Source of the DNA: a virus
IMG/VR virus record: IMGVR_UViG_3300046837_000186
Location: 1-36,058 of that record
Strand: one strand, 5' to 3'
Length of the DNA: 36,058 nucleotides
Below are positions 9,492-30,073 of the stretch, piece by piece (the first letter of the stretch is position 1; each line of letters opens with the position of its first letter). The position numbers and the translations under genes are program-made. The notes below the pieces were generated by a model. That model was not told the DNA's origin and searched no databases. It saw nothing but the letters and a program-made list of their open reading frames with translations.

Positions 9492-9507
9492 CGCCGGCCC
9501 TCCGGCG
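9492..9507 (-). promoter_or_regulatory. Leader hairpin with AGGG tetraloop, copy 4
   Basis: On the minus strand CGCCGG-AGGG-CCGGCG is a perfect 6-bp stem with a four-base loop. It ends 16 bases before the ATG of the 267-aa secreted protein. It is followed by a G-rich ribosome site identical over 19 bases to that of the capsid gene. Confidence 0.7.
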
Positions 9508-9508
9508 T

Positions 9509-12500
9509 TTACGATACCGACGATGCGCCGAGCAGCCCCGTGTAGGTGTTCTGCGCATCCGCCAGCGTCTTGTCGTCGCCCATCACTTCGAATGCCACGA
9601 TCTCCTGATTCCAGTTGGGCGCCCCGGCCTGGAACACCTCCAGCGCCATGAACAACTTCCCGCCCCACGATCCATCGCTGCCGTACCGGCCGTAAGCGTC
9701 CCAGTCGTCGAGCCCCGCCTCGGTCGCGAACACGTCGCCGCGTCGCATGTCGGGGCACTCGCCGAACGTGGTGAACGTCACCGGGTAGGGCGGCTCCCGC
9801 ATCATGTCGAACGTGCGGTTGCGGTACATCAGCGCGACCGCTTCCTTGCGGATGTAGGACGACGGCAGCACCAGGTCCTCGCTGTCGCCCCACGTGTCGG
9901 CGCTCGCCAGCGCCAGCAGTTCGCGCTGAGAGCGCTCGAAAACGGCGACGTAATCCGGGATCGGCGTCCCGCTCGAGCGCGTCGGGTAGTCGAGCTGATC
10001 GAACCCGAGCACCTTCCATGCGCCGTTCGCACTGTTGGCGCCCGAGCTGAACCGGAAGCCCTGGTAATAGGACGCGCTGCCGACGTTGAACCAGAAGCGC
10101 TCTCTGTAGCGCGGCCAAGCACTCGTCTCGCTCGTCACCGCCACCGCCGACTGCAACCCCACCGACCACCAGGCGCCGTCCGTATAGTTCTGGATGATGT
10201 CGAACGTGCCGCCCGTCGCTGAGAGCGTGAACAGGTTGGTGCTGTAGTCGTAGGAGCAGGAGAACGTGCGGCCGAGCGCCAGCGCGTTCAGCGCGTCCGC
10301 GATGGCGCGGCAGAATCCATCCGGCGTGTAATCGCCCGCGTCCATCGTGGCGGTATGAAGCGCCCCCCCGGTCGGCACCCGGACATCGAGCTTGTCGTTA
10401 TATCCGGCCTTGACCGAGAAGCCCCACCCCACGAACTGATCGGGGTTCTGCGCGCGCATCAGGCCCGCGACGTGCGCCGCGAGGTCGATCGCGATGTACT
10501 CGCCATTGGTCAGGGTGCTCGTGTAGTTCGTCTCGCTGGTGTTGCCCGTCCAGTCGAGCTTGTTGTTGCTGTTGTCCACGACCAGCCGCTGGTCGCGCAG
10601 GTCGGACTGCGAGAAGCCGCGCGTGCTGCTGGTCGGCCCCACCACCGTCTCGAACAGGCTGCGACCCTTGAAGTGGTCGAAATAGAACGGCACCCGCACG
10701 GTCTGACGCGCACCGATCAGCGACGCACCGCCCTGCTCAGGGATTCTGGCGAGCGACAGCTTGCCGATCGGGTAGTCGTAGGTCTGCGCCTGGTTGCGGT
10801 CCCAGCAGACCCACTTCCATTTACTGTCGAGCCGATCCAAGTAGAGCAGCGAACAGGACTGCTGGGCGATCGACTGCAGCACCGCCTGCACATAGGTCTG
10901 CTGGTTGAGGAAGCAGGCGAGGTCCCAGTCGTCGGCATAGCCGCCGCGCAGTAGCGTGCGCGCAGCGACCAGCGAGCCGAACTCCGTGGCACCCGTCTCG
11001 ATCGCCCCGTCGCTGACCCCGGCTCGCACGACGAGCAGGTGGCGCGCGATGTCGGGCGCGCGCTCGATCAGCGCCGAAGGGGTGCCGGTGTAGGTGCCAT
11101 CGGCGTCGTCCTGGTAGCCCTCGAGGTGAGCGAAGAACTGAGCGTCAATCTGGAACAGCGGCTCACGAATCACGGACGCGCGGAACGAGGACGGCGCGGC
11201 GGCGAGCCATTGCGACGCTTCGCTGCGGATGACCGAGCCGTGCCAGCCGTAGAAATAGAACTTGCCCTCGCCGGGCAGTGCCAGCGTGCGCGAGGGGCGG
11301 TAATGGATCTTGATCGCGGCCCAGTAGATGCGCGCCTTATTGGTGGTACCGCCCGCGAAGTTGAACGCGATCCCGTAGGTGGCCGCGTTGCCGTCGCCCG
11401 CGACGTTCCACTGCGACTTGATCGTGCCACCGAAGTCCGAATAGGACGCCACCGCCGGGACCGCGCTGGTCGCTGCGATCGAGTGGACCGTGCCGACCGT
11501 CAGCGCGAACGGGTCGTAGCTGAACGCCTGCAGGTTGTTCGCATTCGCCGGGTCGCCCGAGTAGGCGAACTCGAAGTGGAAGTCAACCGCCATGCCGAAC
11601 GCGGCCGGGTTGGGCAGCGCCAGGAACAGCAGGTTCTGTCCGAGGGTCTGATCGAGCACCGCGTAGGAAGTCTCATCCGCCACGTTCATCGCGTTACGCG
11701 CGCTGCCCGCCGTGTTGGGCGTGGCGGTCGTGGCGGCGGTGTAGATGTCATTCGGCGGCACGCCGAAGTAGGCGGTCAGGTTGTCGTCGTCGATCTCGGT
11801 GTAACTGTCGCCGGTCCTGAACCCGTTGAGGCCCGTCGCATCAAGCGGCGCCAGCCGATCGCCGGCCACGACGAAATGCGAGAAGCCGGTCGAGCGGTCG
11901 AAGATCGTTTTAATCCCATGGTCGGACCACGTGATGCGCAGCTTGTTGCCGCCGTAGCCGGGGTCCGTGACGATGCCCGGCACGCCGCCGAAGCACGCGC
12001 CGGCGTTCTCCTGGCTCGCCTTGTCGCTGTAGGGCAGCGGCCACGGGGCGCGCATGTTGAGCGCGCGGAACTGCCCGTAGACGACCGGGACCGGAGCCGA
12101 CGCGCCGACGTCTGGAGCGTTCGGATACGTCAGCTTGTTGACGATCTTGTTGGGGATCTGCCCGCGCACCGTGCCCTGCATGCAGGCCAGCTCGACGCCG
12201 CTCTCGGTTGTCCGAATGCTGTTGATCCGCCCGTCGAAGATCTGCGCCCGGTCGTCCGGGTCGCTCAACGACTTCTCCCACAGCCACAGCGTGATCCGCG
12301 CGCCGTGCCAAACGTGGTCGGCGAGCGAGTCGATAGCGCTGGCGCCGAGCGCCGAGACGACCTGCCGCTTGAGCGTGATCGAGGTCGTGACGTAATCGGG
12401 CCCCGGCGAGAGCAGCGGCGAGGACGCGCGCACGCCCGGCCAGTCCGCGATCGCCGACTGCCAGAGCACCGTGTTGACGTAGATTTCCTCGCTCGCAAGA

Positions 12501-12610
12501 TTGAGCGTCACGGCGTCGGGCAGGGTGATGATGATCTGGCACAGCAGTACCGGCTGGCGGTGCTTCGAGCGCCACGCCCGGGTGAATGCCGGGGTATGCG
12601 GGCTGCTCAT
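9509..12610 (-). CDS. Tail-tip/baseplate hub protein
   Basis: A 1033-aa protein from ATG 12610 (ATGA overlap). The N-terminal 200 residues (FTRAWRSKHRQPVLLCQI, then DYVTTSITLKRQVV and ARITLWLWEKSL) look like the hub entry domain of siphovirus tail-tip proteins. The long central part is a chain of beta domains. Residues about 560-720 contain AVLQSIAQQSCSLLYLDR, which resembles the core of phage Tal/gp27-type hubs. The C-terminus describes a variable beta region. It follows tape measure and Dit-like genes, the canonical place for the hub. No peptidase motif is obvious. Confidence 0.65.
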   Translation of the reverse strand: MSSPHTPAFTRAWRSKHRQPVLLCQIIITLPDAVTLNLASEEIYVNTVLWQSAIADWPGVRASSPLLSPGPDYVTTSITLKRQVVSALGASAIDSLADHVWHGARITLWLWEKSLSDPDDRAQIFDGRINSIRTTESGVELACMQGTVRGQIPNKIVNKLTYPNAPDVGASAPVPVVYGQFRALNMRAPWPLPYSDKASQENAGACFGGVPGIVTDPGYGGNKLRITWSDHGIKTIFDRSTGFSHFVVAGDRLAPLDATGLNGFRTGDSYTEIDDDNLTAYFGVPPNDIYTAATTATPNTAGSARNAMNVADETSYAVLDQTLGQNLLFLALPNPAAFGMAVDFHFEFAYSGDPANANNLQAFSYDPFALTVGTVHSIAATSAVPAVASYSDFGGTIKSQWNVAGDGNAATYGIAFNFAGGTTNKARIYWAAIKIHYRPSRTLALPGEGKFYFYGWHGSVIRSEASQWLAAAPSSFRASVIREPLFQIDAQFFAHLEGYQDDADGTYTGTPSALIERAPDIARHLLVVRAGVSDGAIETGATEFGSLVAARTLLRGGYADDWDLACFLNQQTYVQAVLQSIAQQSCSLLYLDRLDSKWKWVCWDRNQAQTYDYPIGKLSLARIPEQGGASLIGARQTVRVPFYFDHFKGRSLFETVVGPTSSTRGFSQSDLRDQRLVVDNSNNKLDWTGNTSETNYTSTLTNGEYIAIDLAAHVAGLMRAQNPDQFVGWGFSVKAGYNDKLDVRVPTGGALHTATMDAGDYTPDGFCRAIADALNALALGRTFSCSYDYSTNLFTLSATGGTFDIIQNYTDGAWWSVGLQSAVAVTSETSAWPRYRERFWFNVGSASYYQGFRFSSGANSANGAWKVLGFDQLDYPTRSSGTPIPDYVAVFERSQRELLALASADTWGDSEDLVLPSSYIRKEAVALMYRNRTFDMMREPPYPVTFTTFGECPDMRRGDVFATEAGLDDWDAYGRYGSDGSWGGKLFMALEVFQAGAPNWNQEIVAFEVMGDDKTLADAQNTYTGLLGASSVS

Positions 12611-13386
12611 GGCAGCCTCTTCAAGGGCACGCTGACGTTCCACACGTCCGTGAACACGCGCTCGCACGCGACGCCCGACGCCCCGGCCAGCATCACCTCG
12701 AATAGAAGGTCGTTCTCATCGAGCAGGCTGAACGGGTAAGCCTCACCGCCCAACTGATCGAGCACGTCCTTGGCGGCGGTCGTGATCTGCGTGAAGCGCA
12801 TGTCCCACAGGTTGCCCTGGTCGCCGACGTCGTTGATCGCCGGCTGGCCGCTCGGCCCCTCGATCACCGTCTGGTAGCGGAACGGCGTCTCGGTCGAGCC
12901 CGGCGAGTAGATGCCGCCCGCGTCGAGCGTGGGTGTGATCGCCACCAGGAGCTTCCCGACCGAGAAGATGGCCGAGGTATGCGCGAACGACAGTCGGATG
13001 TAACGCGCGCTGCTCGGCCCGGCGATCACCACTACGTCGCGGTTCGCGGTCAGCGTGGCGCCGGAGATGGTTCCCCAGCTCGTGCCCGGGGCGTAGCTCG
13101 TGCCATAGGTGATGGTGAGCGTCCCCATGCTCCCTGAGTGGAGCCGGAAGCCATGCAGCCCGATCGCGTTCACCGAGAGGCTCGAGCCCAGGTCGATGTC
13201 GAACTGGATTGGCGTGGCGGCGCCGGAGGGCGTGAGCCACGGCGTGTAGCGGTCGCTCTGGAGCGCGTTGGTCATCGGGTAGGCGCTGTCTTCGACCGTC
13301 GAAGGAGCGCCGCCGCCCGTGCCATTCTTGAGCGTCGCCGTGAGCGCCAGGTTCTGGCTGTTCTTGATGAACCGCGTGTTGCTCAT
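12607..13386 (-). CDS. Distal-tail-like protein with discoidin-like domain
   Basis: A 259-aa protein with ATGA overlap at 13386. Residues about 35-150 (YPMTNALQSDRYTPWL, IDLGSSLSVNAIGLHGFR, ARYIRLSFAH) follow the F5/8 type C (discoidin) beta-sandwich pattern often used for sugar binding. The C-terminal half includes RFTQITTAAKDVLDQL and LLDENDLLFEVML. Its location between tape measure and hub is the usual place of the Dit adaptor, which in several phages carries carbohydrate-binding modules. A receptor-binding role is plausible. Confidence 0.6.
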   Translation of the reverse strand: MSNTRFIKNSQNLALTATLKNGTGGGAPSTVEDSAYPMTNALQSDRYTPWLTPSGAATPIQFDIDLGSSLSVNAIGLHGFRLHSGSMGTLTITYGTSYAPGTSWGTISGATLTANRDVVVIAGPSSARYIRLSFAHTSAIFSVGKLLVAITPTLDAGGIYSPGSTETPFRYQTVIEGPSGQPAINDVGDQGNLWDMRFTQITTAAKDVLDQLGGEAYPFSLLDENDLLFEVMLAGASGVACERVFTDVWNVSVPLKRLP

Positions 13387-16300
13387 GCCACCGCCGCGAT
13401 CTCAGCGATGCGGTCATTGGCGCGCCGCAGATTCCCGGAGGGGGCGAGCAGGTCGAGCGTCACGCTGCGCGCGTCAAGCGCGTTGATCTGGTAGGTGTTG
13501 CCGCCGCCCGCGGCCGCGAACAGCCGCTGGTCGCGCAGCATCTTGTTCTGTTCGCGCAGCAGCCCGGCCAGCTCGGCGGTGTCGGTGCGGCCGGCCGCGA
13601 AGCCGGCGACCGGGCGCGCCGCAGCGAGCGCGAACGCCGGGGCGGCTGCCAGGCGCGCGGCGGCGAACGTCGGCGGCGTCAGGGCGCGCGAGGCGCCGGC
13701 CAGCGACGCCCGGAGCCCCGCCAGCCCGCCCGCGAGCGCGCCCGCGAGGCTCGAGATATTGAGCGCCGGCAGGGCCGGGAGCTTGAGCTCCGGCACGCTG
13801 ACCGCCACGGCGGGCCGCGGGATGGACGGCGCCGCCACAGAGACGGCCGGAGCCGCAACCGCGAGGCTGACGGCCGGCGATGCAGCGGGCGCGACGTTGA
13901 CCACGGGCGCGGCGGCGGCGGCCACCGAGACGGCGGGCGCCACCAGCGACAGATTGACGGCCGGAGCCGCGACACGCACCGCAGGGGGCGCCGGCAGGAC
14001 CACCGAAACGCGCGGCGCTGGCACTGAGATGGCGGGCGCCGGAGGAATCACCAACGAGACGGCCGGGGGCGCCACGCGCAGGGCGGGCGGCGCCGGCACC
14101 GCCACGTGCACGGCGGGCGGGGCGACCGAAACGTCAGGAGCGGCCAGCGAGAGGTTCACGGCCGGCGCAGCGACGCGGACGGCGGGCGCGGGCGCCAGCG
14201 TGATCGAGACGGCCGGGGATGGCACTGAGACGGCCGCCGGCGGCGGCACGGAGACGCGCACGACGGGCGGCGGCGGCGCAGCCACGGCCGCGCGCACGGG
14301 CGCCGGAGGCGGCACGTTCACCGTGACGTCCGCCGGCGGCGGGACGGCCACGCGCACGACCGGGGGCGGCGTCGCAGCGACCGACACCGAGACGGCGGCG
14401 GTCGGCGGAGCGGCCACCGTGACGGCGGGCGCGGCAACTGAGACGACCGGCGCGGCCGGAGCGGCCACCGAGACGTTCACCGCGGGCGCCGCCACCACGA
14501 CTGTCTGGGCTGCGGCCGGGGCCGCTGAGCTGAGCCCGGCACCACCGCCCGTGACACCGGAGTCAACCAGGCTGATCGCCGCCCCCGCAGGGCCGCCGCC
14601 GAGGAATCCGATGAGGAACTTGAACACCGCGGCGCCAGCGAGGCGCGCCAGTTCGGCCAGCACCTCGTTCACCAGCGACTTGAAGATCGTGACCATGGCC
14701 GACTTCAGCGTCTGCCCGGTCGTGAGGAGCTGGGACGCCACCGTCTGGAATCCAGACTGGAGGCCGTTATAGAGCGCGCTGAACGCCGCGTTCGCGATCG
14801 CCGTCTGCGTCAGCATGTCCTCAACGGCCGACTTCCAGCCCTCGGCGACCGATGCGAACGCCGCGCGCAGCTTGGGCGCCTGCGCGATCAGGTCCTGCTG
14901 TGCCTTCCGTGCCTTGTCGAAGTCGAACGGGATGGGCTGCGAGATGGGCGGCAGCGGCGGCGGGGTGGAGCGCGCCACGATGCCCTTCGGCTGCAGGGTG
15001 GCGCCCTCCTGCTCATCCCGCACCGCCTTGACCACGACCTTGAGCTGCGCGGCAGTGAGCTTCACGCCGAAGGCGAGCAGCACGGCGTTCAGCGAGTCGA
15101 AATCGCCCGCGGCGCGCAGGATCGCATGCAACTGTGCGGTGTTCGCCTTGACGCCATATTCCTTGAGCGCCGCGTCGAGCGCGGGGATGTCGGACTCCGC
15201 GCCGATGCTGACCTTGATGCCCTTCTTCTCGAGTCGCGCCTGCGCGTCGGCGAGGTTCCGGTCGAGCTGCTCCTTGTCGAAATCAACGCCAACCTTGATG
15301 AGCGCGTCGCGGATCTGCAGGCGCTTGGTGGAGTCGTCCACTTTGTGGATCTCGGCCTGGAGATCTCTCGCGCGCGCGGCGTTGTCCTCGAACAGGCGCT
15401 CAAGTTCCGCGAGTTCCTTCTGTGCGGGCGTGAGATCGACCTTCGCCAACTCCTTGAGCTTCTGGGCGAGGTTGGGATCTTCCTGCACGGTGACGTGCGG
15501 CTTGACGACCACGTCGACCTGCTGTGGCGTCAGGTGGACGCCGAGCGCGCCGAGAGCCGACGAGATTGCCGCCGCGGCGGGCACGAGCTTGATGCTTTCG
15601 ATCTCGTGCCGGAGCGCCTTGATGCGCTCCGTGAGCAGCTCGACGTTCTTCGCGTCGGACAGGCCGGGACCGAACAGAGGGCCCTGCGTCAGATTCGGAA
15701 TCGCGCCGGGCGCGGGGTTCTTGAGCTTGGCGAGCCTCTCCTCGGCATCGGCCAGTTGTTTGTTCAGCACATCGAGCGCGTTTACCTCGACGTGCTTGCC
15801 GGAGATCTCCGCAATGATGTCGCGCAACTCCTTGAACGCGGCAACCATTGCCAGCGCGACCGGGATGGTGTTGGCCTTCCATCCGTTCGTTAGGCCGACC
15901 CACTGGCGGTTTAGTTCGTCCGTCTGCTTGTCGAGCGCGCGCGCGCCCTCGAGCGTCTTGTCGCTCATCACGACGCCGAGCTTTTCCATTTCGCTGCGGG
16001 CGTTCGGGAGCTGCTGCGCGAGCTGGTCGATCTTCCCGAGCAGCACGGCCGATCCGCGGCCGAGCAACTGGTATGCGACTTCGACGCGCGCGGCGTGGTC
16101 CTTGCTGGCGGCGAGGATCTGAACAAGCTGGTTGAACGCCTGCCAGGTGTCCTTGGTCGTGATGCCGAGCTTTTTAAGCAGCGGGTCCTGCGTGGCGATC
16201 GCGCGATTGAGGAAGTTGAACGCGATGTTCGCATCTTCGGCGCTGCCCCCCGCTTCGCGGAGGATCTGCTGCATCGTTTGCAGATTGCCGACCGAGACGC

Positions 16301-16541
16301 CCGTCTGCTTGGACAGGTTGTCGAGCCGCTCGACTTCATCCGCGAGCGAGTGCGCGGCCTTGCCGGCCGCTGCGGCGCCGGCCCCAATGATCGCAAGCAC
16401 AGCGCCCAGCGGGCCGAGCCCGGATGCCACCCTGCCGACCAGCGCCGAGAAGCCGCCCAGCGAGCTGGAAACCTGCTGAAGCTGTGCGGTCGCCTCGTCG
16501 CGCGCGCGAATCAGGATCTCGATGGTGTTCGGACCAGCCAC
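13383..16541 (-). CDS. Tail tape measure protein with long Pro-Ala-Val repeat
   Basis: A 1052-aa protein that sets tail length and may guide DNA through the envelope. I chose the GTG at 16541, 11 bases after the chaperone stop; a GTG at 16598 would add 19 residues but has no well-placed ribosome site. The N-terminus is typical (IEILIRARDEATAQLQQVS, then a Gly/Ala hydrophobic segment about 43-63). The middle is helical and charged, with internal repeats of a GVxLTxxQxxVVVK unit. A hydrophobic stretch (about 640-665) precedes roughly 250 residues (about 676-929) of Pro-Ala-Val-Ser repeats such as PAVSVAAP and PPVVRVAV. The last 120 residues return to ordinary sequence. Confidence 0.85.
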   Translation of the reverse strand: MAGPNTIEILIRARDEATAQLQQVSSSLGGFSALVGRVASGLGPLGAVLAIIGAGAAAAGKAAHSLADEVERLDNLSKQTGVSVGNLQTMQQILREAGGSAEDANIAFNFLNRAIATQDPLLKKLGITTKDTWQAFNQLVQILAASKDHAARVEVAYQLLGRGSAVLLGKIDQLAQQLPNARSEMEKLGVVMSDKTLEGARALDKQTDELNRQWVGLTNGWKANTIPVALAMVAAFKELRDIIAEISGKHVEVNALDVLNKQLADAEERLAKLKNPAPGAIPNLTQGPLFGPGLSDAKNVELLTERIKALRHEIESIKLVPAAAAISSALGALGVHLTPQQVDVVVKPHVTVQEDPNLAQKLKELAKVDLTPAQKELAELERLFEDNAARARDLQAEIHKVDDSTKRLQIRDALIKVGVDFDKEQLDRNLADAQARLEKKGIKVSIGAESDIPALDAALKEYGVKANTAQLHAILRAAGDFDSLNAVLLAFGVKLTAAQLKVVVKAVRDEQEGATLQPKGIVARSTPPPLPPISQPIPFDFDKARKAQQDLIAQAPKLRAAFASVAEGWKSAVEDMLTQTAIANAAFSALYNGLQSGFQTVASQLLTTGQTLKSAMVTIFKSLVNEVLAELARLAGAAVFKFLIGFLGGGPAGAAISLVDSGVTGGGAGLSSAAPAAAQTVVVAAPAVNVSVAAPAAPVVSVAAPAVTVAAPPTAAVSVSVAATPPPVVRVAVPPPADVTVNVPPPAPVRAAVAAPPPPVVRVSVPPPAAVSVPSPAVSITLAPAPAVRVAAPAVNLSLAAPDVSVAPPAVHVAVPAPPALRVAPPAVSLVIPPAPAISVPAPRVSVVLPAPPAVRVAAPAVNLSLVAPAVSVAAAAAPVVNVAPAASPAVSLAVAAPAVSVAAPSIPRPAVAVSVPELKLPALPALNISSLAGALAGGLAGLRASLAGASRALTPPTFAAARLAAAPAFALAAARPVAGFAAGRTDTAELAGLLREQNKMLRDQRLFAAAGGGNTYQINALDARSVTLDLLAPSGNLRRANDRIAEIAAVA
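13755..14515 (-). repeat. Degenerate repeats encoding PAVxVxxP units in the tape measure gene
   Basis: About 760 bases encode some 30 short units of the form (P)PAVxVAAP, with Val-rich strands of 3-5 residues between Pro/Ala linkers. The DNA repeats are diverged in length and sequence, so slipped-strand expansion followed by drift is a reasonable inference. The frame is kept throughout. Confidence 0.8.
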
Positions 16542-16552
16542 CCCGCCCCCCG

Positions 16553-16858
16553 CTACTTCATCCGCGCCGTAGACGGTGGGCCGCGGAAGGATCCGCACTC
16601 ACCGATGCCGCCGCTGCTCTCCTGAGACTTCTCAATCTCTGCCAGCTCGTGCGCGCTCGACTGAACGAGCACGAGCCAATCGAACATCAGGTGCCCGATG
16701 TCCGTGTCGCGCCGGTGGAGCACGTCACGGCTGGGGCTCCTCGGCAGCTTCGCCAGCTCGCACAGCGCCCTCGCCAGCGGCAGCCCCTCCGGGCTCCCCA
16801 GGAAATCGTTCGGTGGTTCCGGCCCCCGTCGCCGGTGCGAGCCCCGACAGTTCCGCAA
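16553..16858 (-). CDS. Tail assembly chaperone, frameshifted C-terminal extension (GT-like)
   Basis: This open frame overlaps the 3' end of the 155-aa chaperone gene and has no credible start of its own. It lies in the +1 frame relative to that gene and ends 11 bases before the tape measure start. A +1 slip at TTT-C (codon 130, bases 16805-16802) would let tRNA-Phe re-pair with TTC and continue with LGSPEGLPLARALCELAK for 82 more residues, giving a fusion of about 212 aa. HLMFDWLVLVQSSAHELAEI in the extension looks like the T-domain of such chaperones. A second possible site is GGG-G at 16827-16822. Confidence 0.6.
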   Translation of the reverse strand: MRNCRGSHRRRGPEPPNDFLGSPEGLPLARALCELAKLPRSPSRDVLHRRDTDIGHLMFDWLVLVQSSAHELAEIEKSQESSGGIGECGSFRGPPSTARMK

Positions 16859-17192
16859 TGGCCGCGGTGATCGCCGCGCGGTTCGCCATCTTCAGCGCCC
16901 GCCAGTCCGCTTTGCCTTCGGCGGGGCCGTCGAACGAGAACTCCGGCGCCGCGATGCCCTCGCGCGCGATCGCCCGCATGAGCTTGGATTCGGCCTCGAG
17001 ATCCCGTGCGGCATCCCCGGTCAGGAGCGCCGGAGCCGGGATGCCCCGGAACGCCACGATCAGCAGCTCGGGATCGATCGCACGCACCCGCACGCTGACC
17101 CGGCGCCCGTTCTGGAGTTCCGGCAGGTCGATCGTGCGCTCCTCGATCTGGAAGTCGTCCGCGCCCGCCAGCGGCGCCGTTGCCTCTTGCAT
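16725..17192 (-). CDS. Tail assembly chaperone (G-like)
   Basis: A 155-aa acidic protein between tail tube and tape measure, the invariant position of the lambda G-type chaperone that coats the tape measure during tail building. ATG at 17192. The N-terminal part is beta (FQIEERTIDLPELQNGRR, then VSVRVRAIDPELLIVAF), followed by a helical domain (AARDLEAESKLMRAIAREG). The tail after residue 130 is low complexity (Gly, Ala, Glu), as expected for an unshifted product. The frameshift fusion is listed separately. Confidence 0.7.
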   Translation of the reverse strand: MQEATAPLAGADDFQIEERTIDLPELQNGRRVSVRVRAIDPELLIVAFRGIPAPALLTGDAARDLEAESKLMRAIAREGIAAPEFSFDGPAEGKADWRALKMANRAAITAAIAELSGLAPATGAGTTERFPGEPGGAAAGEGAVRAGEAAEEPQP

Positions 17193-17241: not shown

Positions 17242-17502
17242 ATGTCTTTCCTTTTCGTCCTCGCCGTGCTCTGGGCCTACGTTGCTGCTTCATTTCTTGC
17301 GGGCTGGGTTGCGGCCACGAAGGGCCGCAACCCGTTCAACTGGATCGTTCTGTCTCTGTTCCTCAACCCGCTATTCGTGCTCGTTGCCTTGGCCGCCGTG
17401 CCAGAGATAGACCGCTCGGCACCGACCGAGGAGGAAGCGCTCCGTTCCTTCCGGCCCGATCTCACGGAGCAGCACCGGATGGACGCCGAGCGCCGCTCCT
17501 AG
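17242..17502 (+). CDS. Inverted small two-span membrane protein (moron candidate)
   Basis: The only plus-strand gene I accept. ATG at 17242 follows GGGAGG at ideal distance (6 bases). The 86-aa product has two hydrophobic spans (about 3-22, FLFVLAVLWAYVAASFLAGW, and 33-53, NWIVLSLFLNPLFVLVALAA) joined by a basic loop (KGRNPF), then a charged tail. The KGRNPF-W-LSLFLNPL pattern is common in short bacterial membrane proteins. It fills the whole gap between two tail genes and meets the tail tube gene with both stop codons inside one CTAG. Superinfection exclusion or another host-altering role is inferred. Confidence 0.7.
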   Translation: MSFLFVLAVLWAYVAASFLAGWVAATKGRNPFNWIVLSLFLNPLFVLVALAAVPEIDRSAPTEEEALRSFRPDLTEQHRMDAERRS

Positions 17503-18566: not shown

Positions 18567-18584
18567 TTCCCCACCCCCCTACCC

Positions 18585-18600
18585 CGCGGCCCCTGCCGCG
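18585..18600 (-). promoter_or_regulatory. Leader hairpin with AGGG tetraloop, copy 3
   Basis: On the minus strand CGCGGC-AGGG-GCCGCG forms a perfect 6-bp stem. It ends 18 bases before the tail tube ATG and is followed by GGGGGGTGGGGAA. Confidence 0.7.
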
Positions 18601-21806: not shown

Positions 21807-21977
21807 CTAGTTCCCCTCGTGCTCCGGCTCGTGCACCGGCTCATCGGCAGCGACGAAGAACTCGCCGAAGTTCGCGAGCGCCTCAGCCGCCTGGGCCGCT
21901 TCCATCTCGCAGACGTCGCCCGGATTGAACGACTGTCCGAAGCCGACGAACGCCCGCACACAACGCAGTTGTGCCAT
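21807..21977 (-). CDS. Small acidic protein (56 aa)
   Basis: ATG at 21977 overlaps the stop of the 80-aa gene (TGATG), and its TAG is followed immediately by the GTG of the beta-helix gene. The 56-aa product begins MAQLRCVRAFVGFGQSFNPG and is acidic near the end (DEPVHEPEHEG). The motif FNPGDVCEMEAAQAAEA resembles short phage head proteins with an SH3-like strand pair. Function unknown; tight coupling on both sides supports it. Confidence 0.6.
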   Translation of the reverse strand: MAQLRCVRAFVGFGQSFNPGDVCEMEAAQAAEALANFGEFFVAADEPVHEPEHEGN

Positions 21978-22219
21978 CAGTCCTCCACGATCTCGAAGGG
22001 CCCGCGCCCGTAGGCGTCGGCCTTGAAGTGCTCGAGCATGAACGCAGCCTCATCGGCAGGCACGGCAACGGCTGCGCCCGGAGCGATGTACACCGAGCCG
22101 ACGTAGACGCGCGTTCCGGTGTTCCGAAGCATGACCGTCGTCGGCTGCTCGGCGGGCGGCTCCAGAATCGGATTCACCATCGCCACCGGCTGCGGGTCGC
22201 TTCGCTTGCTTCGTGCCAT
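21977..22219 (-). CDS. Small head-region protein (80 aa)
   Basis: ATG at 22219. Residues about 25-65 (TTVMLRNTGTRVYVGSVY, IAPGAAVAVPADEAAFM) form a compact beta pattern, and the end is FEIVED. Small proteins directly after the capsid gene are often decoration or head-completion proteins, which is the best guess here. It has weak ribosome-site bases that overlap a hairpin in the gap after the capsid gene. Confidence 0.55.
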   Translation of the reverse strand: MARSKRSDPQPVAMVNPILEPPAEQPTTVMLRNTGTRVYVGSVYIAPGAAVAVPADEAAFMLEHFKADAYGRGPFEIVED

Positions 22220-22226
22220 TGGTTCT

Positions 22227-22255
22227 CCGTCAGGAGTGGGGCGAGGGCCTGACGG
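22227..22255 (-). promoter_or_regulatory. 8-bp hairpin before the 80-aa gene
   Basis: CCGTCAGG and CCTGACGG pair perfectly around 13 bases, ending 7 bases before the ATG at 22219. The 3' arm contains the start of the only ribosome site (GGAG), so it could lower translation after the capsid gene. There is no T-tract, so simple intrinsic termination is unlikely. Confidence 0.5.
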
Positions 22256-22281
22256 CTGCCCCCGCCCCCTCCCCGGTTGGT

Positions 22282-23904
22282 CTACGACACGCGCGGCAGG
22301 CTGAATCCGGCGTTGATGGTCGGCTCCGTCGCCACGTCGTATCCGTGCTTGAAGCTCGAGCGACGAACGAACTTGAATACGTCCTGATGGTTCAGGAATC
22401 GGTAGTCGCTCGACATCCGCGCGACCACGCCACCGCGGCGGCCGATCTTGATGGCCGGCCGGTAGACGTGGAACAGCGACGTCAGCGCGCCGCCGTTGCC
22501 CTCGAGGCCCGACGCATCCGCCGCCTCCGACACTTCATCGGACACGACCAGCGGACGCCCCCACAGGCTCGCCAGCGTGCCGGTCGCCACCGTTCCGGGT
22601 CCGCCCATGACCTCGTACGTCTGAACCAGGCGCTCGCCGGTCTTGGTCTTGAGCAGCAGGGCCCACGTCATTCCCATGTTGCTCGTGAGCCAGAGCGAGT
22701 CCTTGATCTTGTGGGCGTAGCGACCCTGCGAACCGAAGATCAGGGCCGAGTTGTCGCCCGTCAGCGCGGGCGCCAGGTTGACCGGCGCCACGATGCCGGC
22801 CGTCACCATCGCGGCATGCCAGTAGCGGATGCCGTCGCCGCAGTTGCGGATGTCGTTGGTCGCGAACGCCGCACCGCCGTCGATCTGCGCCGTCGACTGA
22901 CCATTGACGAGCCAGCGCTCGTCGCCACGGTTCAGCGAGTAGGCGCCCTCGCGCATGATGAAGTCGCCGCCGTTGACGACCGCGTCCTCCTCCCAGAACG
23001 GGGTCGCCACGACCGCCGTGCCGTAGCCGACTGCCGAGAACTGGAACCGCTTCGTGGTCCAGTTCTGCGGGGTCAGCGTCGCGTCGGTCGTGTTGCCGGC
23101 GTCCGCCGTGTTCTCCGGCAGCTTGTTCGGGTAGAGCTGCGATCCGAGCACGCCCATCGTGTAGGTCGGGTTCGGCATCGGCACTTCCTCGAAGTAGCCG
23201 AGGAGCACGCGCTCCGTCTCGACGTAGTCGAGAATGCGGCTGGACATCGCATCGGACGGCACCCAGAAGCCACCCGTCGAGGTCACGCCGTCCGACATCG
23301 CGAGCTGCACGGCCGGCTGGATGCGCGCGGCCAGCTTCTCGAACTCGTCGGCACCCTTGAGCGTCTTCCACGCCCCGGACGCCACCATCGCCGGCCACGA
23401 GTTGCCGATCTTGGCGAGCTGGAGCGCCAGCACGTCCGACACCTCGCGGAACCGCTTCAGCAGGCGCTTGGTCGAGGCGTCGTCGATGCCGAGCGATGCG
23501 TCCGAACGGCACACGACGTTGTACTGGCCGACGTCCATCTTCGACAGCGAGTGCGCCACCGGGTCGTTCTGCGGGTTGTCGCCGGGGGCGAGCGTCGACT
23601 CCCAGCGCGTGACGCCAGAGAGGTCGAGCTTGTCCTTGTCGTGCGGAGCGTCGGGGACGTTGCGGAGCGCCTTCTTGTAGTCGGAGAGCGTCTCCTTGTA
23701 ACCGTCCATCGTGTCCGACACGTCCTTGTGCATCTTCTCGACGACCGACAGCTTCTCGCCGAGCGTCCGGTTCTCGAGGCGCAGCGACTGCGCTTCGCCC
23801 TGGATCGCGGAGAGGAACTCGGCGGCGATCTCGTTCGCCTCCGTCTCGCTCTTCGCCCCGGCGAGCTGCGCCTTGATGTCCTTGTTGAGATCCACCTTGC
23901 TCAT
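22282..23904 (-). CDS. HK97-fold major capsid protein with N-terminal delta/scaffold segment
   Basis: A 540-aa protein from ATG 23904, with GGGAGGGGTGGGGG immediately upstream. Residues 1-130 are helical and charged (e.g. NEIAAEFLSAIQGEAQS, VVEKMHKDVSDTMDGYKE), as in the HK97 delta domain removed by the prohead protease. From about 200 on the capsid fold is recognisable: GFWVPSDAMSSRILDY, VLLGYFEEVPMPN, then FWEEDAVVNGGDFIMREG, GRPLVVSDEV and a final VFKFVRRSSFKHGYDVA. The protease is the preceding gene. Length fits capsids with an attached scaffold. Confidence 0.85.
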   Translation of the reverse strand: MSKVDLNKDIKAQLAGAKSETEANEIAAEFLSAIQGEAQSLRLENRTLGEKLSVVEKMHKDVSDTMDGYKETLSDYKKALRNVPDAPHDKDKLDLSGVTRWESTLAPGDNPQNDPVAHSLSKMDVGQYNVVCRSDASLGIDDASTKRLLKRFREVSDVLALQLAKIGNSWPAMVASGAWKTLKGADEFEKLAARIQPAVQLAMSDGVTSTGGFWVPSDAMSSRILDYVETERVLLGYFEEVPMPNPTYTMGVLGSQLYPNKLPENTADAGNTTDATLTPQNWTTKRFQFSAVGYGTAVVATPFWEEDAVVNGGDFIMREGAYSLNRGDERWLVNGQSTAQIDGGAAFATNDIRNCGDGIRYWHAAMVTAGIVAPVNLAPALTGDNSALIFGSQGRYAHKIKDSLWLTSNMGMTWALLLKTKTGERLVQTYEVMGGPGTVATGTLASLWGRPLVVSDEVSEAADASGLEGNGGALTSLFHVYRPAIKIGRRGGVVARMSSDYRFLNHQDVFKFVRRSSFKHGYDVATEPTINAGFSLPRVS

Positions 23905-23924
23905 CCCCCACCCCTCCCAGGTTC

Positions 23925-23940
23925 GCCGGCCCCTGCCGGC
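23925..23940 (-). promoter_or_regulatory. Leader hairpin with AGGG tetraloop, copy 2 (capsid)
   Basis: On the minus strand GCCGGC-AGGG-GCCGGC forms a perfect 6-bp stem, ending 20 bases before the capsid ATG. It lies in the 87-base gap after the protease gene. Confidence 0.7.
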
Positions 23941-23991
23941 CCCTTATTGCTGCACCCATTTGCCCGACTGAGGTGCGGGCGAACCAGACAG

Positions 23992-24849: not shown

Positions 24850-25106
24850 CCCGTTGCCTTCTTTCGCTTCTGAGATCCCACCGCATGGCGCGTCAGCCGC
24901 GTCGCCTGCGCCTCAGTCGATGCGCTGCTCGCGCGCACGCGCACCCCGCGCCCGATCTCGGGCTTCAACGCCCCGCACCAGAAACACACGTCCGAGACGC
25001 CGCACACTTCCTCGACGTTGTGCGCCGCGCATGTCTCGCAGCGCCAGAATCGTTCCCGCAGGCCTTCGCGGCCGGTGAAGGGCCGGTCCATCTCGGGGCG
25101 CTTCAT
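24846..25106 (-). CDS. Small zinc-ribbon protein
   Basis: An 86-aa protein, ATGA overlaps at both ends. The motif WRCETCAAHNVEEVCGVSD followed by CFWCG has the W-x-C-x2-C-x3-N spacing of RanBP2-type zinc fingers, with a final Cys pair. The tail is basic (TRLTRHAVGSQKRKK). It lies between portal-MuF and protease genes, where no canonical gene is required. Nucleic-acid or protein binding is likely. Confidence 0.55.
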   Translation of the reverse strand: MKRPEMDRPFTGREGLRERFWRCETCAAHNVEEVCGVSDVCFWCGALKPEIGRGVRVRASSASTEAQATRLTRHAVGSQKRKKATG

Positions 25107-27505
25107 CGGCGCCCTACCAGGATTCGGGCGATCCGGTTGGTGGGCGCTGCGCCGGAATCGTCGGCGGACTGTGAGAGCGCCTTCCGGAGCCGGATCGCCT
25201 CAATCCGATTGGCGAGCAATGCCTGATTGACCACCGGGGCGGTGGTGCATACGCAGTTGCACGTCTCGCCCGGAGGTGCGCCCGGATCGCCGGGGAACTG
25301 CATCTCCGTGCCGCCGACGTCGAACGTGTCTCCGATCGCGCGCACCTGGCCGTCGAGCCCCTGGCCGCCGTCCGAAGCGCCATAGATGCCGTTCGGATCC
25401 TCGGAATGCCGCCCACCCAGGCCGCTGCGGCTCGTGAGCCATTCCATTTGATCGACGACACCCGACTGCTGATAGGCTTCCTGCGCTGCAAAGTTGTAGG
25501 CCGACAGGCTCTCGGTGCGGGCGATCGTGAGCGCCTGGTTGCGGCGCGCGTCGAAGGTGTCGTGAACGGCCGCGATCATCTGCTCGAGCGAGCCGCCCGC
25601 CTCGACCGCTGCGGCGAGATTCTTCTGCAACATCTCGCGCGTCGTCTGGTCGGGGATCGAAAGCGCACGCGCCGCCTGATCGGTCAGGAACCGCGCCGCG
25701 CGGGCATTGTTGGCATCGAACCCGACCTCAAGCGCCACGTTCGCGATCGCCTCGACATCAGCGAGCGCCTCGACGCCGCGCTCCCGCACGATCCGTTCGA
25801 GCGCCTTCTTGAACCGCGCCTCATCCTCCGGGTCGGATTCCGGAACCAGCGAGTTCATGTCGAGCGCGTCGAGTGCCACCTTCCGCGCGCCATTCTTCGC
25901 CGCTGCGACGCCGCTGCGCTTAACCCACGCCTTGACCTCGCGCAGCGCGTAGGCCCGCTGGCCAGCCAGCCGCTCGACGCACAGCGCGAGCAGGCTGTCC
26001 GACATGGCGGCGAGTCCCTTCGCCGACTTCTTCCTGCGCCCGAGTTGCTCGGCATTCCGCGTGACGAGTGAGAGCCGCGACGAGTTCTTGGTCGGCGGCT
26101 TGACGTCGGGCGCATTGGGGATCGCTCCAGAATCCGCCCCCACGGCGGGGAATGTCGGCTTGGGAGCGTCGTAGAGCTGGTCATCTTCCGGCCGCTGGGT
26201 CGTCTCGCGGCCCATCTCCTCGCGTGCTTCGTTGCGGGTGATGATCGCGACCCCACCGGCCAGGATCGACAGCGACTTCGCCTGGTTGAGCCGCGCATCG
26301 GCGATCGCCAGCACGTGGTCGTAAGACAGCTCGACCTCGAGCTGCTTGCCGAACAGCGGCGCGAGGCGCTCGGTCAGGATGTCGTCGATCCACTCGGCCA
26401 TCGGCACCACGCCCGACAGCCAGTAGTTCGACAGATCGGTTGAGGCGCCCGCATCCGAGAGGCCGCCGCCCTTCTTGATCCCCATCATCACGGGCGGAAT
26501 GCCGAGCGCGCGGATGATCTTCGCCTCGATGATCGCGAGCTGCTCCTCGAGCTTCATCTCGTTGAGCGTCATGCCCGCGGCCAGGAACTTGAGGCCCTGG
26601 ACGATGACCGGCATCCAGCGCCCGGCCTTGGGCCCATGGAGTCGCGCGATTGATTCCTGCAGCTCGCGGATCTTCGCCGGGCTCATGGCCGGGCCCACCG
26701 GCAATCCGTCCTTGCCGCCCAGGTCGGTCGTCCACACGCCCGGCAGCACCGCGCCGTTCTTGAAGAAATCACGCTGCCACTGGAGCGCGTAGTACTCGCC
26801 GAGGTACGCCTCGCGCACCGCGGTCAGCGGCGAGAGCCCGACCGGCTCATCCTTGGGGTTGTAGCGCGGGAACTGGATCACGTTGCGAACGTCGACCGGC
26901 TCCCACGCCGAGAGGCCCGCCCGGCGATGCATGAAGCCGCGCATGGTGCGGTTCTCGCCTGGCACCGGACGCATGTCCTGCCCCGGCAGGCTCCGATATT
27001 CGACCGGAGACTTTCCGCTGCCGAAGAACTGGAGGAACCAGTAGGCGTTGCCGTTCAGGAGCAGCGATCCGACCGTGTCGGCGAGCTCCTGGCGGCCCGT
27101 CCGTTCCTCGTTCGCGTAGCACAGCAGGTCGAGCAGGTTGCCGCCCTCGTCGACCCGCTTGAACGTGCGCTCCAGCTTCCGCCGCGACTTGCCGGTCCCC
27201 TGCCACACGATCCACTTGCCCTGGCCGATGTCGCGCTGGAGCTGCTCGACGCCCGCGGCCACGGTGGGCGTCTTGAGGAACGCCTCGAGCGGGTCGAGAT
27301 CGTTCTGCGCGAGGTAGAACATCTGATTCATCCACTGCGCCGGCCAGTCGGGCATGTCCCGCGATGCCTTGCCGACCACCGGCCAGCCCATGACCGTCAA
27401 CGCCGCGCGCACGCGATCGCCGAACGACAGGTCTGACAGCATCTCCACGCGCGGGGAGGTGTCGCCCTCGTTCTTCCCGACCAGCACCAGCGAGCGCCCC
27501 TTCAT
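25103..27505 (-). CDS. Portal protein fused to MuF-like head morphogenesis domain
   Basis: An 800-aa protein with ATG 27505 overlapping the terminase stop (ATGA). Residues about 50-440 are an HK97-family portal: MFYLAQNDLDPLEAFLK, LLLNGNAYWFLQFFG, NVIQFPRYNPKDEPVGLSPL and KIIRALGIPPVMMG. Residues about 661-755 are the MuF domain: IARTESLSAYNFAAQEAY, then FPGDPGAPPGETCNCVC where most relatives have NCRC. Separate portal and MuF genes are more usual; here no stop lies between them. The portal forms the packaging channel, and MuF-type proteins are minor head proteins injected or needed for assembly. Confidence 0.82.
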   Translation of the reverse strand: MKGRSLVLVGKNEGDTSPRVEMLSDLSFGDRVRAALTVMGWPVVGKASRDMPDWPAQWMNQMFYLAQNDLDPLEAFLKTPTVAAGVEQLQRDIGQGKWIVWQGTGKSRRKLERTFKRVDEGGNLLDLLCYANEERTGRQELADTVGSLLLNGNAYWFLQFFGSGKSPVEYRSLPGQDMRPVPGENRTMRGFMHRRAGLSAWEPVDVRNVIQFPRYNPKDEPVGLSPLTAVREAYLGEYYALQWQRDFFKNGAVLPGVWTTDLGGKDGLPVGPAMSPAKIRELQESIARLHGPKAGRWMPVIVQGLKFLAAGMTLNEMKLEEQLAIIEAKIIRALGIPPVMMGIKKGGGLSDAGASTDLSNYWLSGVVPMAEWIDDILTERLAPLFGKQLEVELSYDHVLAIADARLNQAKSLSILAGGVAIITRNEAREEMGRETTQRPEDDQLYDAPKPTFPAVGADSGAIPNAPDVKPPTKNSSRLSLVTRNAEQLGRRKKSAKGLAAMSDSLLALCVERLAGQRAYALREVKAWVKRSGVAAAKNGARKVALDALDMNSLVPESDPEDEARFKKALERIVRERGVEALADVEAIANVALEVGFDANNARAARFLTDQAARALSIPDQTTREMLQKNLAAAVEAGGSLEQMIAAVHDTFDARRNQALTIARTESLSAYNFAAQEAYQQSGVVDQMEWLTSRSGLGGRHSEDPNGIYGASDGGQGLDGQVRAIGDTFDVGGTEMQFPGDPGAPPGETCNCVCTTAPVVNQALLANRIEAIRLRKALSQSADDSGAAPTNRIARILVGRR

Positions 27506-29007
27506 GCCGCCCACACCTCCGCGCGGCTGAAATGCCCACGGCAGACGTAGCCGAAGCAGTCGAGCCCGTGGTTATCGCGGTCGACCGGCTGGTCGGTGCG
27601 CTTGTCACTCGCCTCGCTCGAGGCCGGACGCGCGCCCGGCCAGCGGTAGCGGCCGAACTCGCGCAGGACCGAGGTCGGCATCTTGTCGGCGGCCAGCCCC
27701 TGATCCTCGTAGACGAGCATGTCGCGCACGAAGTAGACGCGCCGCTCGTTCAGGGCCGCCGATGCGGCGAGCAGCATGGCCGTGATGTCCTTCATGGCCG
27801 GCGCGGTCCAGACGCCCGCCTTCGCGAGCTCGCTGCGCCATCCCAGCTCGTGATCGCTCCAACTCTCGGTCAGCGAGAACTCGGACAGCGCCGGCCACAG
27901 GGCGCGCGCCTCGTCCTCATCGGCGAGGCAGTCGCGCATCGCGCGCAACTCCTTCGCCTCCTCGGCGAGCACCGTTGCCGCCCAATCACTCGGCGCCCGG
28001 CCCCGGCCGTAGAGCTCGCGATAACAGACGATCACCCCGTCCGGGCGCTCGGCGTACCACTGGCAGACGAACGGATGGTTGACGCCGAAGTCGAAGCCGC
28101 GGATGCGCGGCCAACTCGGCGGCGGGAAACCGCCCCAGCGCTTCCAGTCGTCGGGGCGGTCGATGATGTGGACCGCAGGGTCGAACGTGCGGCCATAGAC
28201 CAGCCCCTCGCCGCGCACCCACCGGCCGAGCACCAGACGCTCGTATTCGACCGTGCCCTTCAGGCTCGCGCGGCGGCGCCGATAGTCGTCGGTCAGGTTC
28301 TCTTCGTTGTCGTCGGGCTGGGAAAGGATGACCTCGTAGGTCGCCCCCGTTTCGGGCATCACGTCCTGCCGCATGCCCTTCTCTTCGACCTGGTAATCCG
28401 CGTTGATCCAGTGCTCGGGGTCGTCGGCGTTGCAGATCAGGACCAACTGCCGCGGGTTCATGCCGAGCCGCTTCGCGAGGGCCTCGAGGTAGGGCTCGGT
28501 GAAGTTCAGGCGCGTGCCGGCGAACACCATGTGCGAGCGCTCGAACTGCTCGGCCTGGTCCCAGATCATCAGGCCCCATTCGGTCGACAGGTTGCGGCCC
28601 GGATCCTTCCAGCCGAAGGCGCCGATATAGCTCTGGCGCGTCAGCCCGTCCGGACATGTGACGGGCGGGAAATAGAACCGGCTTTCGCCGTCCTTCCAGC
28701 ACTGCCGCCACACGTCAACGCCGACGATCTTGCGGAACGTCTCGAGCGTCGAGCCGTCCATGCTCACGCGCTCATACCGGCACAGCGCAATCGGCAGCCC
28801 CGGAAGCTGGCTGCCGTAGATGAGCGCCTTCATGATCGCGGAGAACGACTTCCCCTTGCGGACGCGGCTCGAGAAGATGACCGTCTCGGCGGTCGACAAG
28901 ATGCATCGTTCCTGGGCGTAGGAGTTGGGGGCGAGCGAGACGCGCACGGCCGGAGCCGAGGCCCCGGCGTTACCCATCGTCATCGCCGCAACCAGCAGGA
29001 ACCACAC
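27502..29007 (-). CDS. Terminase large subunit
   Basis: A 501-aa packaging motor. The GTG at 29007 has GGGAGG 8 bases upstream; ATGs at 28983 and 28977 are less supported. Walker A is SSRVRKGKS (46-54), with Ser in place of the first Gly. Walker B is WGLMIWDQAEQF (about 144-155), having Asp-Gln rather than the more common Asp-Glu. VLICNADDPEHW (about 189-200) is the coupling motif. The nuclease domain has RGFDFGVNHP (Asp306) and NHGLDCFGYV (Asp483). It follows the small-terminase candidate and precedes the portal. Confidence 0.88.
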   Translation of the reverse strand: MWFLLVAAMTMGNAGASAPAVRVSLAPNSYAQERCILSTAETVIFSSRVRKGKSFSAIMKALIYGSQLPGLPIALCRYERVSMDGSTLETFRKIVGVDVWRQCWKDGESRFYFPPVTCPDGLTRQSYIGAFGWKDPGRNLSTEWGLMIWDQAEQFERSHMVFAGTRLNFTEPYLEALAKRLGMNPRQLVLICNADDPEHWINADYQVEEKGMRQDVMPETGATYEVILSQPDDNEENLTDDYRRRRASLKGTVEYERLVLGRWVRGEGLVYGRTFDPAVHIIDRPDDWKRWGGFPPPSWPRIRGFDFGVNHPFVCQWYAERPDGVIVCYRELYGRGRAPSDWAATVLAEEAKELRAMRDCLADEDEARALWPALSEFSLTESWSDHELGWRSELAKAGVWTAPAMKDITAMLLAASAALNERRVYFVRDMLVYEDQGLAADKMPTSVLREFGRYRWPGARPASSEASDKRTDQPVDRDNHGLDCFGYVCRGHFSRAEVWAA

Positions 29008-29023
29008 CGCGCCCGCCTCCCTG

Positions 29024-29368
29024 CTACTGCCCTGCCGCCCCTGGCTTCGGGAAGTTCTTCAGCTCGACTGAGAACACCGGCCGCGCTGCCTCGTCCAGCC
29101 TCATCGTCTGTTCGCTGCGCTTGGGCTGCCCGTACCGATCCATCCACTCGCCCGTCGCCTTGATCCGATCGGACCACCGCGCCCGCTTGTCGCGCGCGCA
29201 TTCGGCGAAGATCTCCCTGGCTTCCGCCTCGCAGAACTCCCGGTCAATCTTTCTTGCGAGTGCTTGGTTGGCGGCTAGCCGCGAGTTTGCGCGATTGGCC
29301 GCGAGCTGCCGCTCGGACATCCGCTTGCGTTTGACGGGCGTCCCGTCCTTGCGTCGTGCGCGCTTCAT
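29024..29368 (-). CDS. Small terminase subunit candidate
   Basis: A 114-aa basic, helical protein directly upstream of the large terminase. KRKRMSERQLAANRANSR (about 13-30) and DREFCEAEAREIFAECAR (about 42-59) are charged helices, followed by ARWSDRIKATGEWMDRYG. ATG at 29368. This fits the DNA-binding small subunit by position, size and composition, but no named helix-turn-helix is clear. Confidence 0.55.
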   Translation of the reverse strand: MKRARRKDGTPVKRKRMSERQLAANRANSRLAANQALARKIDREFCEAEAREIFAECARDKRARWSDRIKATGEWMDRYGQPKRSEQTMRLDEAARPVFSVELKNFPKPGAAGQ

Positions 29369-29381
29369 CGTTCAGTTCTGG

Positions 29382-29437
29382 TGGGGCGGCCGCCCTTTGC
29401 TTCCCCGTCAACCCGACCGCCCCACCGGCCGCCCCCT
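29382..29437 (-). promoter_or_regulatory. Long GC hairpin before the small terminase gene
   Basis: GGTGGGGCGG and CCGCCCCACC pair over 10 bases within the 72-base gap between the secreted-protein and small-terminase genes. No T-tract follows on the minus strand. It could be a processing or Rho-dependent pause site. Confidence 0.45.
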
Positions 29438-29440
29438 CGA

Positions 29441-30034
29441 TCAGTACAGGCGCTTCGGGTACCGAATGAAGCACCGCACGCCCGATAGCTTCGGAGTCGT
29501 TCCGCCCTGGTCGCCCTGCACGCGCAGTCGAATCAGCCCGGCGCCATAGCAGTTGATCGCGGTCGGGAGCGCATCGGCGTCAGCGAGCAGGACGCCCGAA
29601 TATCGGACGTTGGACGTCCCCCCGAAGCCCTGGTCGACCACGGCGACATTGCCGGCCGCCGAGGTCGGCCCGGCCGGCCAGTTCTCCCAGATCGTGATCG
29701 GGATGCCCGCCGCCGTGTAGGTCGGCACGCCGCGCTGGACGACGTAGTAGATCGAATCGCCTGCAGCGTTCGACGTCTGGGCGGTGAAAGTCACGAACGC
29801 CTGGACGTAGGGAAGGATTCCGGACGCCGGATTCGCGGCCGGCCAGTCCCAGTCGGCCGTGTTGATGACCACGAAGTCGGAATCGCTCTCGTCCGTGACG
29901 AACGTCGTATCGAGGCCGGTCGTCCAGAACGGGTGAATCTCGTTCCACTCGATGGCGTGCGCCGGAGTGGAGATGGCGAGCGTGGCGCCCACCAGAACCG
30001 CGAGGAAAGCCGAGAAACCGAGAACACGCTTCAT
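29441..30034 (-). CDS. Secreted beta-rich protein (197 aa) upstream of terminase
   Basis: ATG at 30034, with GGAGG about 10 bases upstream; a GTG at 30043 would add three residues. A textbook signal peptide runs to residue 27 (RVLGFSAFLAVLVGATLAIS, then TPAHA). The mature chain is acidic and beta-rich (FVVINTADWDWPAANP, YVQAFVTFTAQTS, GDSIYYVVQRGVPTY), with two Cys near the C-terminus (INCYGAG, VRCFIRY). Its leader bears the AGGG hairpin. A signal-peptide gene at the head of the packaging cassette is unusual. It could be a virion protein that matures outside the cytoplasm, or an abundant exported factor. Confidence 0.6.
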   Translation of the reverse strand: MKRVLGFSAFLAVLVGATLAISTPAHAIEWNEIHPFWTTGLDTTFVTDESDSDFVVINTADWDWPAANPASGILPYVQAFVTFTAQTSNAAGDSIYYVVQRGVPTYTAAGIPITIWENWPAGPTSAAGNVAVVDQGFGGTSNVRYSGVLLADADALPTAINCYGAGLIRLRVQGDQGGTTPKLSGVRCFIRYPKRLY

Positions 30035-30057
30035 AACCGCCACCCCTCCCCGTCCCT

Positions 30058-30073
30058 GGCCGCCCCTGCGGCC
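30058..30073 (-). promoter_or_regulatory. Leader hairpin with AGGG tetraloop, copy 1
   Basis: On the minus strand GGCCGC-AGGG-GCGGCC forms a perfect 6-bp stem ending 23 bases before ATG 30034, followed by GGGGAGGGG. Confidence 0.7.

Follow-up and report, generated by a model that had tools for sequence, protein, structure and literature searches.

The linear virus record IMGVR_UViG_3300046837_000186 (36,058 bp, analysed at its full length and hereafter called the window) possesses a siphovirus-type late region that runs leftward on the minus strand and comprises terminase, portal, major capsid, tail-tube and tape-measure genes besides further tail genes (Table 1). Four perfect 6-bp stems closed by AGGG loops are present in the window, all on the minus, i.e. 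coding, strand, on which the hairpins are read here, and each is located in the leader of one gene: the major capsid gene, the tail-tube gene, and two genes of 197 and 267 aa. Positions and stems of all four are identical to those listed in an earlier sequence-only reading of the window. Sequence comparison supports a covarying RNA hairpin linked to gene starts. The element is real and apparently undescribed: no description of it was found in the open-access literature, and Rfam covariance models gave no match up to E = 1 on either strand of the whole window.

The labels that the sequence-only reading had given to the capsid and tail-tube genes hold. The former rests on a PF05065 match, the latter is supported by a homologue (25% identity, tblastn 8e-9) at 4053-5033 of another contig, L004, the protein of which is a member of PF18906 (Phage_tube_2, 2.5e-15). 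The two other proteins had been called secreted; both indeed have signal-peptide-like N-termini, but neither matches any family. Predicted folds of the 197-aa and tail-tube proteins are of unusable quality, the mean pLDDT being 43 and 28, respectively. A fifth, weaker copy of the hairpin, absent from the sequence-only reading, is probably present at 2795-2811 and is less certain than the other four. It overlaps the 3' end of the upstream reading frame, and the ATG of a 215-aa gene follows 21 nt downstream.

Table 1. Hairpins, spacers and genes of the window, and hairpins of contigs L125/L108 (SD, Shine-Dalgarno; E-values of hairpins refer to model R1)
Feature	Position	Strand	Sequence	Remarks
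AGGG hairpin, leader of 197-aa gene	30058-30073	-	GGCCGC-AGGG-GCGGCC	E 1e-8
AGGG hairpin, leader of major capsid gene	23925-23940	-	GCCGGC-AGGG-GCCGGC	E 8.5e-11
AGGG hairpin, leader of tail-tube gene	18585-18600	-	CGCGGC-AGGG-GCCGCG	E 3.3e-8
AGGG hairpin, leader of 267-aa gene	9492-9507	-	CGCCGG-AGGG-CCGGCG	E 2.5e-7
Probable fifth copy	2795-2811	-	CCGGCC-ACGGG-GGCCGG	5-nt loop; E = 0.0011
G-rich SD spacer up to ATG, 23 nt	30035-30057	-	AGGGACGGGGAGGGGTGGCGGTT	predicted SD duplex -15.2 kcal/mol
Spacer and SD up to ATG, 20 nt	23905-23924	-	GAACCTGGGAGGGGTGGGGG	predicted SD duplex -14.5 kcal/mol
G-rich SD spacer up to ATG, 18 nt	18567-18584	-	GGGTAGGGGGGTGGGGAA	predicted SD duplex -15.7 kcal/mol
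G-rich SD spacer up to ATG, 16 nt	9476-9491	-	AGGGGAGGGGTGGGGG	predicted SD duplex -16.6 kcal/mol
Second, upstream hairpin of capsid leader	23962-23980	-	GCCCG-CACCTCAGT-CGGGC	kept in L095, L045 and L004
L125/L108 hairpin, capsid leader			GGCGC/GCGCC	AGGG loop
L125/L108 hairpin, portal leader			ACCGGCGATC-AGGG-GATCGCCGGT	10-bp stem
L125/L108 hairpin, leader of 139-aa gene			CGCAGC/GCTGCG	AGGG loop
197-aa gene	29441-30034	-		upstream of terminase; signal-peptide-like N-terminus; no family match
Terminase	27502-29007	-		late region
Portal	25103-27514	-		late region
Major capsid gene	22282-23904	-		PF05065, E 6.6e-6; PHROG major head protein
Tail-tube (major tail) gene	17499-18566	-		homologous to L004 4053-5033 (PF18906); precedes tape-measure gene
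Tape measure	13383-16598	-		late region
267-aa gene	8672-9475	-		between tail genes; signal-peptide-like N-terminus; no family match
215-aa gene	2126-2773	-		downstream of fifth copy; no family match

The distance between hairpin and ATG is 15-28 nt in 12 copies, mostly 16-23 nt. Gaps of 23, 20, 18 and 16 nt were measured for the copies at 30058, 23925, 18585 and 9492, respectively, which is the range of 16-23 bases previously given for them. In contrast, the measured distances from the upstream stop codon to the hairpin lie anywhere between 1 and 69 nt, and one copy extends into the upstream frame; it is the ATG and not the preceding stop codon that fixes the position of the hairpin. Both features bear on the possibility of a terminator or 3'-end hairpin belonging to the upstream gene, to which the copies at 9492 and 18585, located directly after upstream stop codons, could point, as could annotated phages such as Andrew and TP1604 with strong terminator-like hairpins before the capsid gene. 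We consider a terminator hardly credible, given the variable stop distance and given that the hairpins are followed by a G-rich SD and an ATG instead of the U-run of intrinsic terminators.

The G-rich ribosome sites reported next to the four hairpins are the strongest SD tracts among the gene starts scored. With a canonical 16S tail assumed, which may differ from that of the host, and with the start codons of the other genes chosen by hand, the four AGGG genes rank first among 24 scored gene starts (predicted SD duplexes of -14.5 to -16.6 kcal/mol), followed by the fifth copy (-12.9 kcal/mol) and the remaining starts (-2 to -12.3 kcal/mol). Every AGGG or AGGT hairpin is predicted to fold locally, leaving SD and ATG outside. 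Most leaders, not all, are also predicted to be able to form a G-quadruplex, the one at 9492 strongly, that of contig L045 not. No consistent promoter-like or A+T-rich block was found upstream of the hairpins.

Hairpins as such are not rare in the window: it contains 18 perfect 6-bp stems with tetraloops, about as many as shuffles predict (20.2), as chance in a GC-rich genome would have it. The negligible probability that we leave to chance reflects its refutation by the identity of the loop, the strand, the spacing and the presence of the element in other phages. Perfect 6-bp hairpins with AGGG or CCCT loops occur four times, all on one strand, vs 0.19 expected (maximum of two in 100 shuffles), and dinucleotide shuffles of each 60-nt G-rich leader give p = 0.00015-0.0005 for each AGGG hairpin; the sequence-only reading had named random GC-matched sequence with the motif at similar frequency as a refutation, and shuffled sequence does not yield it. 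Among stems of at least 5 bp in the window, 4/4 AGGG-loop hairpins are leader-positioned, compared to 1/142 with other loops (Fisher p 2.8e-7). In 81 unrelated viral contigs of >60% GC, 17 leader-positioned hairpins (stem at least 6 bp) were detected, none of them with an AGGG loop. Leader-positioned tetraloop hairpins (stem at least 5 bp) of five phage groups, vice versa, possess AGGG in nine of 11 cases and AGGT in one. A stricter pattern gave 33 matches in bacterial and archaeal genomes, all with stems of 4 bp or less; in viral contigs it found 5-6 bp stems only in the phages described here and stems of up to 2 bp in others. Of ten leaders compared from six annotated phages (capsid, tail or neighbouring genes), some contain hairpins and none an AGGG element.

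The stems of nine distinct hairpins differ in sequence while pairing is kept, as the sequence-only reading had claimed for the four of the window: 98.1% of pair cells are paired vs 60.8% with the 3' letters shuffled, the former value being inflated because some rows were chosen for forming hairpins. Double-change cells number 18 vs 6.0 in shuffles, all six pairs are changed on both sides, and sliding the pairing register abolishes the covariation signal. As A-U and U-A pairs are present, this covariation is more than GC symmetry. Loop positions 1-3 are invariantly A, G and G in 10 aligned hairpins; two deviating loops, ACGGG of the fifth copy and CTAGC of the L004 tail-tube leader, are outside this alignment. 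The covariance model R1, which comprises hairpin, SD and ATG and was built without the 10-bp hairpin of the portal leader and the tail-tube hairpin of L004, recovers the nine founding sites in 0.93 Mb at E < 1e-5, clearly separated from the next matches. Since nearly all pairs are Watson-Crick, the element is compatible with a DNA cruciform or dyad as well, i.e. with a protein-bound operator or late promoter. Such a DNA-level palindrome is very improbable: the dyad symmetry is conserved and the dyad sequence is not, AGGG lies on the coding strand in every leader copy, and the position is set by the ATG and not by upstream sequence, where a promoter-like motif is missing.

Relatives were searched among viral contigs with the exact pattern GCAGGGGC...GGGGTGG...ATG, in which the inner two pairs are fixed and the outer stem is free. 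Among the matches listed, 130 in number including many duplicates of the same sites, 16 have the full 6-bp stem and one a 5-bp stem, the rest 2-4 bp; the long-stem contigs among them are the window and its copies, L095, L045 and L108/L125. Proteins of L095, L045 and L108/L125 were compared only after this hairpin-based recovery. L095 (capsid 41% and portal 49% identical to those of the window) and L045 (capsid 27%, terminase 37%) both have the hairpin in the capsid leader. L004 was recovered through a scan for G-rich SD sites alone; the leader of its capsid gene (28% identity to that of the window) forms GCCAGC-AGGT-GCTGGC, and that of its tail-tube gene ACGCC-CTAGC-GGCGT. The capsid leaders of L095, L045 and L004 therefore pair with changed stem sequences, as the sequence-only reading required of related phages. 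Close relatives with the same genes are limited to near-identical contigs (L001-L003, at least 99.6% identity), which for this reason are uninformative on covariation. The GCAGGGGC core was the criterion by which L095, L045 and one of the L125 copies were recovered, so that these three do not count as independent support for loop or inner pairs; such support comes from the four copies of the window and the other two copies of L125.

L125/L108 possesses three AGGG hairpins, before the capsid gene, the portal gene and a 139-aa gene. Its proteins have no detectable homology to those of the window (best blastp E 0.003, short segments) and its portal family differs, so that the element spans at least two phage lineages without detectable shared proteins. 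Tetranucleotide usage of L125/L108 is close to that of the window, which fits a common host lineage of both and is no proof of it. The carriers of the element are several little-known soil-type phages, and it precedes, among others, the capsid genes of five phages as well as tail-tube and portal genes. The comparison comprises few phages, with short contigs for L095, L045 and L004, and further phages with the element may exist. Tape-measure and terminase searches and tblastn of the major capsid protein against phage records found no relatives, blastn of the capsid leader against phage records gave no match, the looser viral pattern GGCAGGGGCC..GGGAGG..ATG revealed no convincing new members, and model searches of eight whole genomes, at a limited first look, yielded no hit.

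The capsid leader contains, besides, a second hairpin, which in the window lies approximately 21 nt further 5' than the AGGG hairpin. Its L004 version, GCCAG-CACCATGAGC-CTGGC, represents one compensatory pair change, and its loop begins with CACC in three of the four contigs (window, L095, L045 and L004). This hairpin is noncoding in the window and overlaps a stop codon in L045.

The nearest described system is the start-associated sequences (SAS and ESAS) of cluster K mycobacteriophages, located in the non-structural half of the genome: SAS is a fixed 13-bp sequence of the GGGATAGGAGCCC type, 3-7 bp before the start, and the inverted repeats are imperfect, 17 bp long and separated by variable spacers, mostly of 4-13 bp; pairing at the RNA level found little support with the authors of that study (PMC3203893). 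The element described here is likewise a repeated phage element at the translation starts of a chosen gene subset, and the likeness extends to an SD-containing motif with, in about half of the SAS sites, an inverted repeat just upstream. In contrast, the leaders of the window have tracts of the GGGAGGGGTGG type and no GGGATAGGAGCCC, the stems are perfect (5-10 bp) with a 4-nt loop and strong covariation, the loop stays constant while the stem varies, and the genes served include structural ones. The element is thus a phage start-associated leader of a known sort, but built as a covarying RNA hairpin. The phage T4 possesses hairpins with UUCG tetraloops between genes, and resembles the present case in reusing one tetraloop in intergenic hairpins, here AGGG rather than UUCG.

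Sequence comparison directly establishes the predicted hairpin, its link to the start codon, the strong SD and the recurrence before capsid genes of diverged phages; from these we infer a function in translation. The sequence-only reading had offered protein binding, stabilisation of mRNA ends and a standby ribosome site as candidate functions; the tie to the strongest SD sites and the fixed distance to the ATG favour a role in initiation. Capsid and tail tube, both required in hundreds of copies, are among the served genes, the ATG spacing is held and the predicted SDs are the strongest of those scored, and we therefore lean, at somewhat better than even probability, towards a bipartite translation-initiation leader for abundant virion proteins. 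Such a leader would consist of a 5-10 bp hairpin with an AGGG (AGNN-type) tetraloop, a mostly unstructured G-rich linker of 15-28 nt with a strong SD, and the ATG. The hairpin would fold on its own within the polycistronic late mRNA, prevent C-rich upstream RNA from pairing with the G-rich SD, and lie directly against an SD-bound 30S subunit on its upstream side. Initiation on capsid, tail tube and a small number of further genes would consequently be high and decoupled from the gene upstream. More speculatively, the fixed AGG of the loop, AGG being the SD core, might be read by the anti-SD of the ribosome or by a protein.

The rate of initiation can be determined by structure located 5' of the SD, and a hairpin next to a G-rich element, a G-quadruplex 46 bp upstream of the SD, raised reporter translation (PMC3936740; PMC11087576). 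Structured standby sites and 5'-UTR hairpins of this kind are mostly synthetic or limited to single genes, whereas the present element is natural, repeated and has a fixed loop; unlike in the quadruplex reporters, the G-rich tract is the SD itself. Several observations weigh against an initiation leader. A translation gain from a single upstream hairpin is not automatic: in one study, conducted in E. coli and in vitro, a hairpin alone gave none and helped only with an upstream G-quadruplex (PMC11087576). Unpairedness of SD and start in longer folds (0.31-0.61) is not clearly above that of other genes. The element is missing from the terminase and tape-measure genes and, within the window, from the portal gene, and consequently is not a general late-gene signal.

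The main rival, in our view unlikely, is a loop-binding protein of phage or host that reads AGGG on any stem and switches translation on or off, in the manner of coat-protein operators or of a reader of AGNN tetraloops. Yeast RNase III (Rnt1p) reads A-G-N-N tetraloops, a class that AGGG and AGGT fit, equally with free stem sequence; Rnt1p signals serve eukaryotic processing, whereas nothing observed here points to an Rnt1-like reader or to cleavage. Protein binding would explain why A-G-G of the loop is invariant while all stem pairs vary. As the element is also present in a phage without shared proteins, binding would need a host factor. Protein binding is at odds with the 5-nt loop of the fifth copy and the CTAGC loop of the L004 tail-tube leader, no candidate protein is common to the window and L125 at the homology level given above, and by itself binding leaves the link to the strongest SD sites unexplained. 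We hold it possible, yet doubtful, that AGGG hairpin and extreme SD form a hitherto undescribed cis-acting RNA code in unrelated phages of one uncultured host lineage, marking capsid, tail and portal genes for high translation via a shared host factor that reads the loop.

Hairpins at 5' ends commonly protect transcripts, and the element could accordingly cap a processed or separately started late mRNA or block its decay. This role would suit abundant mRNAs and likewise needs the stem alone. It is rather improbable, considering that promoter-like or A+T-rich blocks are not consistently present before the hairpins, that stems of mostly 5-6 bp are too short for RNase III processing, and that end protection requires neither a fixed ATG spacing nor an invariant loop.

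Phages need hundreds of capsid and tail-tube subunits and a dozen portal subunits from the same late mRNA, and gene-by-gene tuning of late protein output is often not understood. The compact, portable element marks such genes; an initiation leader, if true, would represent a novel kind of regulatory signal and, for GC-rich bacteria, an expression part of practical use.

Further features of the window were observed. In the 215-aa protein encoded behind the fifth copy, the N-terminal half is membrane-like, a signal-peptide-like stretch is located internally, and the C-terminal residues are LAAWLVF; this end recalls outer-membrane strands, and the protein is possibly lysis- or envelope-related. 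Upstream of the gene at 29024-29368, a 10-bp inverted repeat, GGTGGGGCGG...CCGCCCCACC (about 29380-29425, minus strand), ends approximately 14 nt before the ATG. The capsid gene is followed (about 22220-22276, minus strand) by a G-rich tract, CCGGGGAGGGGGCGGGGG, an 8-bp hairpin, CCGTCAGG/CCTGACGG, and a small gene at 21977-22219. Inside the tape-measure gene, positions 13700-14600 form a GC-rich repeat region (72% in 12001-15000) with many imperfect direct repeats of 20-40 nt.

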